Assembly: GCF_900113225.1 (NCBI RefSeq)
Contig: NZ_FOZE01000001.1
Coordinates: 992,001-1,056,000 of the forward strand
Source of the DNA: Mitsuaria sp. PDC51
Lineage (GTDB): Bacteria; Pseudomonadota; Gammaproteobacteria; Burkholderiales; Burkholderiaceae_C
Reading direction: 5' to 3'
Length of the DNA: 64,000 nucleotides
This document shows positions 15,178-19,994 of this stretch, one piece after another (the stretch's first letter is position 1; every line of letters begins with the position of its first letter). A program made the translations under genes and the position numbers. The notes beneath the pieces were generated by a model. The model was given only the letters and a program-made list of their open reading frames with translations. It did not search any database and had not been told where the DNA came from.

Positions 15178-16260
15178 ATGCAGGCCTTGCAGATCCTCGC
15201 CGGACCCCGTGCGCGCCAACGGCTGCGCGACCATGGCCTGCGCGCCGCCGACGTGCGCGCCGTGCCCGGCGCGGCCGGCGGCCCCAAGGGGCTGATCCTC
15301 AGCGCGCTCGACGCCCATCTGTTCGGGGAGTTCCTCCCGTCCGGCGGCCAGGAGGTGCACCTGCTGGGCGCCTCGATCGGCGCCTGGCGCATGGCCACCG
15401 CCTGCCTGAGCCGCGACGCCGCCGGTTGCCGCGCCGAGTTCGAACGCCTCGCCCACGACTACGCCCACCAGGACTACGAGTCCGAGCCCGGCAAGCGCCC
15501 GAGCGCCGCGACCGTCACCCGCGCCTTCTCGCAGAAGCTGGCCGAGATCTTCGGCGGGCGCGAGGCCGAGGTGCTCGCCCATCCCCAGTTCCGGCTGCAT
15601 GTGTTCACCTCGCGCGGGAAACATGTGCTCGGGCGGGAAGGGCGGCTGCGCACGCCGCTGGGCTACCTCGGCGCCTTCGCGGCCAATGCGATGTCGCGCC
15701 GCGCGATGGGCGCCTGGCTGGAGCGGGTGGTGTTCTCCGACAAGCGCTCGCCGCTGCCGATGCCGCTCGCGGACTACCGCAGCCACCAGGTCGCGCTGGA
15801 CGCCGGCAACCTCAAGCCCAGCCTGCTGGCGAGCTGCTCCATCCCGTTCTGGCTGCAGGCCGTGCACGACATCGAAGGCGCGCCCGCCGGCGCCTACTGG
15901 GACGGCGGCATCACCGACTACCACCTGCACCTGAACTACGCGGCGATGGTGGGCGACGGCATCGCGCTCTATCCGCATTTCCAGTCGAGCGTGATTCCCG
16001 GATGGCTGGACAAGGCGCTCAAGCACCGGCACCGCACCAGCGCCTTCCTCGACAACGTCGTGCTGCTGACGCCCAACCCCGAGTGGGTGAAGACGCTGCC
16101 CAATGGCAAGCTGCCCGACCGCAACGACTTCCAGCGCTACCTGAACGACGTGCCGGGCCGCGCCCGCGACTGGCTGCGCGCGGTGCGCGAGGGCGAGCGC
16201 CTGCGCGACGAATTCCAGGAGGCCTGCAGCCGCCCGTCGCTCGACATCCAGGCGCTCTGA
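15178..16260 (+). CDS. Patatin-like phospholipase/acyl hydrolase
   Basis: Encodes 360 residues. The patatin elements are present: a glycine-rich oxyanion loop (G-A-A-G-G-P-K-G, about residues 31-38), the nucleophile elbow G-A-S-I-G with Ser66, and the Asp of the catalytic dyad in W-D-G-G-I-T-D. No signal peptide or membrane helix was seen, so it is probably cytoplasmic. The ATG at 15178 was chosen over an in-frame TTG at 15151 because AAAGGA lies 11 nt upstream. The natural lipid substrate is unknown. The promoter of the thrS operon appears to lie within its last codons. Confidence 0.85.
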   Translation: MQALQILAGPRARQRLRDHGLRAADVRAVPGAAGGPKGLILSALDAHLFGEFLPSGGQEVHLLGASIGAWRMATACLSRDAAGCRAEFERLAHDYAHQDYESEPGKRPSAATVTRAFSQKLAEIFGGREAEVLAHPQFRLHVFTSRGKHVLGREGRLRTPLGYLGAFAANAMSRRAMGAWLERVVFSDKRSPLPMPLADYRSHQVALDAGNLKPSLLASCSIPFWLQAVHDIEGAPAGAYWDGGITDYHLHLNYAAMVGDGIALYPHFQSSVIPGWLDKALKHRHRTSAFLDNVVLLTPNPEWVKTLPNGKLPDRNDFQRYLNDVPGRARDWLRAVREGERLRDEFQEACSRPSLDIQAL

Positions 16261-16268
16261 GCTACACT
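16241..16268 (+). promoter_or_regulatory. Candidate promoter of the thrS-infC-rpmI-rplT operon
   Basis: TCGACA (16241-16246) and TACACT (16263-16268) are separated by 16 nt and match sigma-70 hexamers at 5/6 and 4/6 positions. The -35 lies inside the end of the patatin gene. It would start a transcript about 45 nt before the candidate thrS leader peptide. Confidence 0.5.
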
Positions 16269-16317
16269 GCCGCCTTCATTTCTTTTTCCAACAAGGACCG
16301 GGAAAGGCGAATCGGTT

Positions 16318-16356
16318 ATGACACCGCGGACTAGCACCTCCACTGCGAAGGTTTGA
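16318..16356 (+). CDS. Candidate threonine-rich leader peptide for thrS (12 aa)
   Basis: A 12-codon frame, [12 protein letters not shown], containing four threonine codons (ACA, ACT, ACC, ACT), the last three within five codons. AAAGG at 16303-16307 lies 10 nt upstream. The stop codon is directly followed by a G/C segment (16357-16366) containing GCCGCG, which can pair with CGCGGC in the 5' arm of the terminator at 16417-16425. That arrangement is what a transcription attenuator needs. Ribosome stalling at Thr codons would leave the segment free and favour antitermination; completion of the peptide would cover it and allow termination before thrS. This is inference from sequence layout. Confidence 0.6.
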
Positions 16357-16416
16357 GCGGCCGCGGCTCGTCACGTCTTTTCCCCTGCTGTCCGGAAACA
16401 GTCAGCACCCCAGATC

Positions 16417-16449
16417 AAGCGCGGCAAGTGGCCGCGCTTTTTGTTTTCT
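16417..16449 (+). terminator. Attenuator-type intrinsic terminator before thrS
   Basis: Perfect 9-bp stem AAGCGCGGC / GCCGCGCTT with a 5-nt loop, followed by a T-rich tract (TTTGTTTTC). It ends 13 nt before the thrS ATG and follows the threonine-rich leader, so it should control read-through into thrS rather than end the preceding gene. Confidence 0.75.
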
Positions 16450-16462
16450 GGAGTACCCGAAC

Positions 16463-18388
16463 ATGTCCCAAATTTCCATCCAACTGCCCGACGGTTCGAA
16501 GCGCGAGTTCCCGCAGCCGGTGACCGTCGCCGAGGTGGCCGCCTCGATCGGCACGGGCCTGGCCAAGGCTGCGCTGGCCGGCCGCGTCGGCGCGGGCGAG
16601 AACGCCCGGCTCGTCGACACGAGCTTCCTCATCGACCAGGACACGCAGCTGGCCATCGTCACGGACAAGGATCCGGACGGGCTGGAGGTGATCCGCCACT
16701 CGACGGCCCACCTGCTGGCCTACGCGGTCAAGGAGCTGTTCCCCGACGCCCAGGTCACGATCGGCCCCGTCATCGAGCACGGCTTCTATTACGACTTCTC
16801 CTACAAGCGCCCCTTCACGCCCGAGGACCTCGCGGCGATCGAGGCCAAGATGGCCGAGCTCGCGAAGAAGGACGAGAAGGTGACGCGCTCGGTGCTGCCG
16901 CGCGACGAGGCGGTGCAGTACTTCAAAGGCATCGGCGAGGCCTACAAGGCCGAGATCATCGAGAGCATCCCGGCCGACCAGGACGTGTCGCTCTACGCCG
17001 AGGGCGGCTTCACCGACCTGTGCCGCGGCCCGCACGTCCCGTCCACCGGCAAGCTCAAGTTCTTCAAGCTGATGAAGGTGGCGGGCGCCTACTGGCGCGG
17101 CGACCACCGCAACGAGCAGCTCCAGCGCATCTACGGCACGGCCTGGGCGACGAAGGACGACCTGACCAACTACCTGCGCATGCTCGAGGAAGCCGAGAAG
17201 CGCGACCACCGCAAGCTCGGCAAGGAGCTGGAGCTGTTCCACATCGACGAGCACGCGCCGGGCGTGGTGTTTTGGCATCCCAAGGGCTGGACGGTGTGGC
17301 AGGAAGTCGAGCAGTACATGCGCCGCGTGTACCGCGACAACGGCTACCAGGAAGTCAAGGGCCCGCAACTGCTCGACAAGACGCTGTGGGAGGCCACGGG
17401 CCACTGGGACAAGTACCGCGACAACATGTTCACGACGGAATCGGAGAAGCGCGATTACGCGCTCAAGCCGATGAACTGTCCCGGTCACATCCTGATCTTC
17501 AAGCACGGCATCAAGAGCTACCGCGATCTGCCGCTGCGCTTCGGCGAGTTCGGCCAGTGCCATCGCAACGAGCCCACGGGCGGCCTGCACGGCATCATGC
17601 GCGTGCGCGGCTTCACGCAGGACGACGGCCACATCTTCTGCACGGAAGACCAGATCCTGGCCGAATGCGTGGCGTACACGGCACTGTTGCAGAAGGTCTA
17701 CAAGGACTTCGGTTTCGAGAACATCATCTACAAGGTCGCGACGCGCCCCGAGGCGCGCATCGGCTCCGATGAGGTCTGGGACAAGGCCGAGTTCGCGCTG
17801 ATGGAGTCGCTGCGCGCCTCCGGCGTGGAATTCATCATCGCCCCCGGCGATGGCGCCTTCTACGGTCCGAAGATCGAATACACGCTCAAGGACGCGATCG
17901 GCCGCCAGTGGCAGTGCGGCACGATGCAGGTCGACTTCTCGATGCCGGGCCGCCTGGGCGCCGAGTACGTCGGCGAGGACGGCGAGCGCCGCACGCCCGT
18001 GATGCTGCATCGCGCGATCGTCGGCAGCCTGGAGCGTTTCATCGGCATCCTGATCGAGCAGCACGCCGGCGCGCTGCCCGTCTGGCTGGCGCCGACGCAG
18101 GTGGTTGTCGCGAATATCACGGACGCCCAGGCGGATTACGTTTCAGACATTGTGAAATCGCTGCAAAAACAAGGGCTTAGGGTCCAGGCCGATTTGCGCA
18201 ATGAAAAGATCACGTATAAAATCCGCGAGCATTCGCTGCAAAAAGTCCCGTTCATCCTCGTCGTCGGCGACAAGGAAAAGGCGAACGGCGCGGTTGCAGT
18301 GCGCGCCCGAGGCAACCAGGATCTGGGCGTGATGTCGCTGGAGGACTTCGTCTCGAAGCTCTCGACGGCCATCGCGGACAAAGCCTGA
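16463..18388 (+). CDS. thrS: Threonyl-tRNA synthetase
   Basis: Encodes 641 residues, full length for a class II ThrRS. The order is: TGS domain (residues 1-60), editing domain (about 65-225, with H-S-T-A-H-L-L-A), catalytic core (about 245-535), and anticodon-binding domain (about 540-641). The zinc-binding cysteine is in M-N-C-P-G-H; motif 2 lies around [12 protein letters not shown]. It charges tRNA-Thr with threonine in the cytoplasm. It heads the conserved operon with infC, rpmI and rplT, and expression is probably set by the leader attenuator immediately upstream. Confidence 0.98.
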
Positions 18389-18455
18389 GTCGGGCGCTTT
18401 TTGCGTTTATTGATCTCTTCGGACCCTTGCCAAGGCCCGTTTAAAGGTAACCACC

Positions 18456-19004
18456 ATCGCTACTTTTGCTGACCGTCGTGCGATTCCGGAGCGCAAGCAC
18501 CGCCTGAACCGCGAAATCACCGCTTCCGAAGTCCGTCTGAATGGCCCGGAGAACGAGCCGATCGGCATCGTCTCGATCCAGGAAGCGCTCCGGATGGCCG
18601 GTGACCTGGACGTCGATCTGGTTGAGATTGCCGCGACAGCGGTCCCGCCGGTCTGCCGGTTGATGGACTACGGCAAGTTCAAGTACCAGGAGCAGAAGCG
18701 CGCGGCGGAAGCCAAGTCCAAGCAGAAGGTCATCGAGGTCAAGGAAGTCAAGTTCCGTCCGGGCACGGACGAAGGCGACTACCAGATCAAGATGCGCAAC
18801 CTGCGCCGCTTCATCGCGGAGGATGGCGACAAGGGCAAGGTCACGCTGCGCTACCGCGGCCGCGAGATCACCCACCAGGACATCGGCATGCGCATGCTGG
18901 AGCGCATCCGCGATGAACTGGCGGACGTGGCGGTGGTGGAGCACATGCCCAAGCTGGAAGGGCGCCAGATGATCATGGTGCTCGCGCCGAAGAAGCGCAG
19001 CTGA
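18456..19004 (+). CDS. infC: Translation initiation factor IF-3 with AUC start codon
   Basis: Encodes 182 residues. The N-domain ([15 protein letters not shown]) is complete only if translation starts at the ATC at 18456, which sits 8 nt after AAAGG; no ATG, GTG or TTG fits the family N-terminus. The first ATG (18594) would delete 46 conserved residues. Rare AUU/AUC/AUA starts in infC are known to serve autoregulation because IF-3 rejects non-canonical start codons. The C-domain contains KVKFRPG-like and G-R-E-I-T-H motifs. It binds the 30S subunit, blocks subunit joining and proofreads initiator tRNA. Spacing from thrS is 67 nt. Confidence 0.95.
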
Positions 19005-19797: not shown

Positions 19798-19861
19798 TTG
19801 CCAAGGTCCGTTGGCGGGTGCTCGCCCGTGGACGGACTGGCAACTCCGGCGTTGCCGGAGT
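19798..19861 (+). promoter_or_regulatory. Overlapping hairpins between rplT and pheS
   Basis: Directly after the rplT stop, TTGCC (19798-19802) can pair with GGCAA (19839-19843), with inner GTCCGT/ACGGAC pairing. GGCAAC (19839-19844) can instead pair with GTTGCC (19851-19856). ACTCCGGC (19843-19850) pairs with GCCGGAGT (19854-19861). The alternatives exclude each other and precede an intrinsic terminator, as in an attenuator, but no phenylalanine-rich leader peptide was found. Confidence 0.4.
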
Positions 19862-19871
19862 CGCCCTTTTC

Positions 19872-19904
19872 AAAGGCCGACACCCTGGTGTTCGGCCTTT
19901 TTTC
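19872..19904 (+). terminator. Intrinsic terminator between rplT and pheS
   Basis: AAAGGCCGA-CACC pairs with GGTGTTCGGCCTTT (one bulged base), followed by six T residues. It ends about 90 nt before the pheS ATG. It either ends the thrS-rplT operon or attenuates read-through into pheST. Confidence 0.8.
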
Positions 19905-19994
19905 ATTCCGGCGCGGTGGTGCGATGTTCGCCATTTCACCGTCGCGCCCTTCGATTTCCGCCAACGACGCCAGATGCCGCATCGGCGCCCCGCG

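Follow-up and report, generated by a model that had tools for sequence, protein, structure and literature searches.

The region upstream of thrS in Mitsuaria sp. PDC51 raises the question of whether this gene, known from Escherichia coli as the classic example of a gene controlled at translation by a synthetase, is governed by a ribosome that reads threonine codons in a short leader frame. A preliminary description of the window (the whole stretch of 64 000 nucleotides that was analysed) had placed a threonine leader peptide and an attenuator in front of thrS. This reading is supported by the comparison of relatives, both in the Thr codons and in the stems, and the leader is likely to be a ribosome-mediated (trp/pheM-type) transcription attenuator by which thrS is tuned to the charging of tRNA-Thr.

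The thrS leader in the window

The features of the locus are collated in Table 1. The frame of 12 codons, four of them for Thr, that the preliminary description had placed before thrS was recovered on the forward strand, with an ATG start codon (16318–16320) and a TGA stop codon (16354–16356). Thr occupies positions 2, 5, 7, and 9 of the peptide; codon 6 is Ser (AGC) in the window and ACC in the nearest relative (L002). The stop codon is followed by GCG and then by GCCGCG (16360–16365; downstream sequence GCGGCCGCGGCTC), which is able to pair with CGCGGC of the terminator 5′ arm. This pairing, too, had been described beforehand, and it was found to start 3 nt past the stop codon and to match an arm that begins 60 nt beyond it. 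The terminator itself (AAGCGCGGC-aagtg-GCCGCGCTT, 16417–16439) proved to be perfect as claimed, with a 9-bp stem, a 5-nt loop, and a T-rich tail that extends to approximately 16449; its distance to the start of thrS is 23 nt. The ribosome-binding site of thrS, located by eye, is GGAG at 16450–16453.

Table 1. Coordinates of the proposed attenuator and of its target gene in the window.
Feature	Position	Strand	Remarks
sigma-70-like promoter	TCGACA 16241–16246, 16-nt spacer, TACACT 16263–16268	+	overlaps end of upstream patatin-like gene
conserved leader ribosome-binding region (AAGGACCGGGAAAGGCG...GGTT)	16291..16317	+	part of a block matched separately in many family genomes (approximately query 36–84), and of the alignment
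leader peptide frame, four Thr codons	16318..16356	+	frame plus coding signature in relatives
strand 1 (ACCGCGGACTAGCACC)	16323..16338	+	end of codon 2 to codon 7; partner 16349–16367
strand 2 (GGCCGCGGCTC)	16359..16369	+	partner either strand 1 or terminator 5′ arm
strand 3, terminator 5′ arm (AAGCGCGGC)	16417..16425	+	
strand 4, terminator 3′ arm (GCCGCGCTT, 16431–16439) and T-rich tail	16431..16449	+	3:4 hairpin −16.5 kcal/mol
thrS, threonyl-tRNA synthetase, proposed regulated gene	16463..18388	+	domains TGS, tRNA_SAD, tRNA-synt_2b, HGTP_anticodon

Taken alone, the terminator is not beyond chance (one terminator-like site in 15800–17000 versus a shuffle mean of 0.8), and the duplex of 16359–16369 with the terminator 5′ arm (−14.1 kcal/mol) lies 1.2 SD below shuffles. 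It is the conservation among relatives, not the score of the window alone, that places the leader and its pairing above chance.

The mechanism proposed for these elements is as follows: Transcription would start approximately 40 nt upstream of the leader frame, as judged from the −10 element, and a ribosome would translate the leader (MTPRT...). With ample Thr-tRNA the ribosome would reach the stop codon and cover strand 2; the terminator (3:4) would then form, and most transcripts would end near 16449. With scarce Thr-tRNA the ribosome would stall at codons 5–9 and cover strand 1, whereupon strands 2 and 3 would pair and the polymerase would continue into thrS. If the leader were not translated at all, 1:2 and 3:4 would form and transcription would stop. 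The net effect would be more ThrRS when charged tRNA-Thr is short. Stalling, read-through, the transcription start site, and the effect on the level of thrS are in each case predicted from the sequence.

The proteins encoded behind thrS are, in order, IF-3, L20, and PheT. A weak terminator-like site (18383–18395) directly behind the thrS stop codon bears on the co-transcription of infC. The preliminary description had the attenuator govern infC, rpmI, and rplT as well, an extension that none of the results supports. No ATG is present at the expected start of infC, for which inspection by eye gave ATC (18456–18458) as the likely start codon; rare infC start codons are known elsewhere. The gap between rplT and pheS (19840–19905) contains, also by eye, a GC-rich hairpin region and a hairpin that ends in TTTTTT (AAGGCCGACACC...GGTGTTCGGCCTT). 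This hairpin is possibly a pheS attenuator; no Phe-rich leader was seen before it, and a simple terminator scan did not list it.

Conservation and coding selection in relatives

Of 149 relatives searched at the DNA level, 94 gave matches, which fall into two separate recurring blocks at the beginnings of the leader and of thrS, in some cases with the terminator as well. The leader frame was present in 65 of the 70 same-family loci that were read and absent from five, a count that is biased upward because 64 of the 70 had been chosen by DNA similarity to this same region; the remaining six had been picked through the ThrS protein, and all six carry the frame. A less biased count was obtained from the leader 18-mer, which occurs with at most one mismatch in 222 of 299 family genomes and which, at up to three mismatches, has a single copy in the genome of the window. 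In a class-wide sample the 18-mer was found in 3 of 369 genomes, all three from the family of the window; this sample bounds other orders only, and for this 18-mer only, because few genomes of Burkholderiales were included in it. Among the matches listed in named genomes (at least 118 stretches), thrS follows within 400 nt downstream in 115 of 118, and in the other three the motif is so close to the edge of the available DNA that thrS is out of view. The genera listed include Variovorax, Massilia, Janthinobacterium, Comamonas, Acidovorax, Rhodoferax, Cupriavidus, Herbaspirillum, and Undibacterium.

Leaders from two sources were used in the following comparisons, 84 selected by homology and 115 from the scan of named genomes; the sets overlap in part and were dereplicated jointly to 74 and 84 (158 in total). 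Upstream of the leader a promoter was found as a sequence element: of 157 dereplicated leaders, 93 have a −10-like hexamer in the 75 nt before their ATG (5.4 in shuffles), most commonly at a distance of 48–52 nt. A terminator was assigned to 195 of 199 leaders, to one of them by hand, in a count made without a shuffle control. In one locus of the same genus as the window (L017) the terminator is kept and the leader frame is missing. Its place is occupied by short direct repeats (CGTTCAAGCGC units, by eye).

Codons 2–5 of the leader are nearly fixed at the nucleotide level (ACA CCG CGA/CGG ACT/ACG). Codon 5 is Thr in all 84 homology-selected leaders, a result favoured by the string (up to five mismatches) with which these leaders were placed; the string includes the first two bases of codon 6, and the pattern of the named scan ends before that codon. 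Thr stands at codon 6 in 52 of 74 homology-selected leaders and, among the matches listed in the named scan, in 68 of 84, with a third base so free that all four Thr codons are in use. At codon 7 the corresponding counts are 41 of 74 and, again among the matches listed, 40 of 84. From codon 8 onward, Thr accounts for 67 of 494 in-frame codons in the first set and for 63 of 575 among the matches listed in the second (13.6 % and 11 %). In the other two frames the counts are 11 and 10 of 420 codons for the first set and 10 and 16 of 491 for the second (2.0–3.3 %), so that the in-frame density of Thr codons is three to six times that of the other frames. Retention of Thr with free third bases from codon 6 onward points to translation of the leader. 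Judged from these codons, the leader frame is under coding selection for Thr in the relatives. The locus thus presents a short frame with a ribosome-binding site upstream of thrS in which Thr codons are over-represented.

The 84 homology-selected leaders vary in their stop codons (TAG in 40, TGA in 32, TAA in 12), and one has a GTG start. Their peptides contain two (11 leaders), three (12), four (23), five (26), six (10), or seven (2) Thr residues. A possible mini-hairpin at the start of the leader (YGGU/ACCG) was noticed by eye; at base −5, T or C stands in 59 of the 74 homology-selected leaders and in 77 of 84 among the matches listed in the named scan, but G in 13 and 6, respectively.

Outside the family, 54 loci were inspected, which represent 31 families of the order with one to seven loci per family. 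A leader of the MTP type is present in 18 and another short frame, identified by eye, in 14, mostly with an Arg-Thr core (that of L098 has Thr and no Arg-Thr pair); no leader was found in the remaining 22. A fixed rule for the Arg-Thr pair finds 11 leaders among 36 loci versus 0.19 in shuffles. Of the 54 loci, 36 have a tRNA-Val(GAC) gene on the same strand in the approximately 600 nt before thrS (12 of 18 with an MTP-type leader, 9 of 14 with another short frame, and 15 of 22 without a leader); none of the six family loci scanned has one. Examples within L071–L130 are L094, L102, L110, and L116, and the leader frame and the terminator often come next. In L099, L104, and L109 the gap from the 3′ end of tRNA-Val to the start of thrS is at most approximately 25 nt and holds no leader and no terminator, as if tRNA and synthetase shared one transcript. 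A terminator precedes thrS in 12 of the 22 leaderless loci, nine of which also have tRNA-Val; because leaderless loci carry both, the leader may be a later addition to the tRNA–thrS arrangement and the terminator. The idea that the leader is a remnant of tRNA-Val was rejected, since 21 of the 32 leader-bearing loci of other families contain tRNA and leader next to each other. A wider scheme is regarded as rather unlikely: an order-wide leader that predates the family would sense tRNA-Thr by a fixed Arg-Thr codon pair (CGA-ACN) and not by a run of Thr codons, and would often be co-transcribed with the tRNA-Val(GAC) before it, which would put tRNA, leader, and synthetase on a single transcript; in a few lineages thrS would directly adjoin tRNA-Val without leader or terminator.

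Competing pairings and folding models

The pairings of the 158 dereplicated leaders were compared with dinucleotide shuffles of the sequence around strand 2. Both were stronger than expected, with a median z of −0.81 for 1:2 (Wilcoxon p=2e-14) and of −1.03 for 2:3 (p=7e-16); the control with strand 1 reversed gave z=+0.12 (p=0.83). The margins of the window itself are small for the two pairings (z=−1.2 and −0.9). When terminator arms were swapped between species, strand 2 was found to prefer its own arm (84 leaders, p=0.001). The same value was obtained with 53 dereplicated family leaders (p=0.001), and no such preference was seen outside the family (n=18, p=0.28). In the swap test and in the cruder equilibrium measure given below, L066 (family f3) was counted with the family, whose 66 leaders are the 65 mentioned above and L066; the 18 leaders of other families would be 19 with it.

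Covariation of strand 2 with the terminator arm holds at one position flanking the pairing core. The test was anchored solely on this shared core and performed with 114 leaders, 44 of the 158 having been left out because strand 2 or the arm showed no clear core. The base beside the core is complementary in 79 of the 114 versus 51±4.4 in permutations; the complementary pairs are chiefly G-C (40) and T-A (27), and all 27 A bases of the arm at this position face T in strand 2. The second flanking position is weak (Watson–Crick pairs 62 versus 55.6, p=0.03; with G-U included 74 versus 72, p=0.27), and no covariation was found at the third and fourth. On a ThrS tree of 99 loci (41 of 140 were dropped, 12 with short ThrS and 29 without a core), the arm changes from C to A on four branches, each with T already in strand 2, and strand 2 reverts from T to G on three branches on which the arm has C. 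Both sides change together on one branch three times, where 0.93 such cases are expected (p=0.054); of the 21 one-sided changes, 12 leave the position unpaired. Mutually exclusive pairings 1:2, 2:3, and 3:4 were thus found mainly within the family.

The preliminary description had named conserved Thr codons and compensatory changes in the stems of related thrS upstream regions as the check on its proposal. Both were observed: Thr is kept while third bases change, and the competing stems are kept with a compensatory G-C/T-A difference between strand 2 and the terminator arm.

Folding was modelled for the free RNA, for a ribosome stalled at codon 6, and for a ribosome at the stop codon. Over the 158 leaders the probability of 2:3 was 0.46 (free), 0.62 (stalled), and 0.52 (at stop), and that of 3:4 was 0.86, 0.77, and 0.93, respectively. 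The stalled state had a 2:3 probability at least 0.1 higher than that of the free RNA in 78 of 158 leaders and lower in 4; relative to the ribosome at the stop codon it was 0.1 higher in 65 of 158, but lower in 24. With codons 1–9 shuffled, the probability of 2:3 was 0.50, and the real codons lowered it only to 0.46 (47 of 158 leaders lower, 29 higher, p=0.017). Most of the rise in 2:3 hence results from hiding 28 nt in itself, and strand 1 is only weakly specific in the model. With a cruder equilibrium measure a clear rise was seen in only 12 of 66 and 2 of 18 leaders.

For the window, the model predicts 1:2 together with the terminator in the free RNA, 2:3 in an unfinished transcript with codons 1–9 covered, and the terminator in RNA covered to 9 nt past the stop codon. 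In the finished transcript with codons 1–9 covered, strand 2 is paired with the terminator 3′ arm in the best structure; the terminator probability of the full-length transcript is 0.72 when stalled and 0.96 otherwise. These model results agree with an attenuator in direction and fall short of proof, because equilibrium folding is a poor proxy for co-transcriptional folding.

Alternative explanations and known systems

Frame, selection for Thr, promoter-like element, terminator, and competing pairings together make up the anatomy of a ribosome-mediated attenuator. The terminator could instead simply end an upstream transcript (that of the patatin-like gene in the window, that of tRNA-Val in many other families), with thrS expressed from its own promoter or by leakage and the frame incidental. 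Such an arrangement is seen in the nine of 22 leaderless other-family loci in which tRNA-Val, terminator, and thrS follow one another, and L017, with its terminator and no leader, would also suit it; it is nevertheless quite improbable, given the coding selection on the frame, the −10 element upstream of the leader (93 of 157 versus 5.4), the 2:3 covariation, the lack of a tRNA in the six family loci scanned, and a terminator that in the window lies only 23 nt from the start of thrS. Very improbable is an RNA element bound by ThrRS, in analogy to the E. coli operator, or by another factor, which would control translation or termination with no ribosome as sensor and with the frame secondary. 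From codon 6 onward Thr is kept while third bases are free, and no Rfam family reaches its gathering score over the leader. Conservation of codons 2–5 down to their third bases (ACA, CCG, CGA/CGG, ACT) exceeds the needs of peptide coding and speaks for such an element, although it is also explicable by the pairing of strand 1.

The least probable of these explanations is that a ribosome stalled on the frame reports translation stress in general or a specific nascent peptide (MTPRT or an Arg-Thr core) rather than Thr-tRNA. The enrichment of Thr at the later codons of the family leaders argues against it, as does the occurrence of the element, among the matches listed, before thrS only; on its side are the nearly fixed first five residues, the Arg-Thr pair that recurs as CGA-ACN in 11 of 36 distant loci (0.19 in shuffles), and two distant Arg-Thr leaders with a single Thr codon (MGFRTCMPDSMHRF and MFRTCSLALYC).

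Three of the known parallels to the attenuator governed by tRNA-Thr charging that is preferred here come from E. coli. In pheM–pheST, a ribosome-mediated attenuator inside the thrS–infC–rpmI–rplT–pheST cluster, a Phe-rich leader and a terminator precede the synthetase genes; the window likewise has a leader rich in the cognate amino acid, a terminator, and an aminoacyl-tRNA synthetase gene, but with Thr in place of Phe and with the leader in front of the cluster, not inside it. E. coli thrS is regulated at translation: ThrRS binds a tRNA-like hairpin in the leader mRNA and blocks ribosome binding. The same gene is thus controlled through its leader mRNA, whereas the window has a translated frame and a terminator instead. 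The thrL leader of thrABC in E. coli shares the Thr codons and the attenuator; it belongs to a biosynthetic operon and senses Thr and Ile, and it is set apart from the window by this type of operon, not by sequence comparison. In Firmicutes, the T-box riboswitch of thrS binds uncharged tRNA-Thr directly, and antitermination raises thrS without translation. The outcome is alike, with thrS raised when tRNA-Thr is uncharged, but the leader of the window would be translated. No T-box match was found at the gathering score over the window, nor up to E=5 on 16200–16520.

In the Rfam search of the window only a tRNA-Pro elsewhere reached the gathering score. In the search of 16200–16520 up to E=5, four sub-threshold rows on 16318–16472 (ar9, mir-7918, ncS025, and STnc310, the last on the minus strand) were attributed to chance on a GC-rich hairpin; this includes the Burkholderia sRNA ncS025 (15.3 bits versus a cutoff of 46, E=2.2). 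The main text of the 2017 ncS025 paper contains neither "threonyl" nor "leader".

A leader peptide upstream of thrS has been proposed for Streptomyces lividans (thrL–thrS, PMC8079986), with 18 residues (MKRVRPFLETTPGFVPAR), two of them Thr, a leaderless transcript, and no clear terminator. It resembles the window in having a Thr-containing leader before thrS and differs in these features and in belonging to another phylum. A 2004 survey by Vitreschak and colleagues is cited in the same paper. In PMC2965389, E. coli ThrRS is named as self-regulating, and Figure 1 of that paper covers 65 attenuated gene families; Table S3 of PMC5688073 comprises 82 short 5′ UTRs. No thrS leader peptide was found for Burkholderiales in the literature covered, which includes subscription papers, figures, and supplements only incompletely. 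With a thrS leader peptide already proposed in Streptomyces, the probable Burkholderiales attenuator belongs to a known kind of switch.

If Burkholderiales do use a leader peptide and a terminator, thrS has switched its mechanism of control within the proteobacteria, at a point that can be located on a tree. Two hundred genomes or more (222 of 299 in the sample of one family) would gain a short gene and an expected RNA of approximately 170 nt, a leader RNA that may be listed as an sRNA in RNA-seq work.
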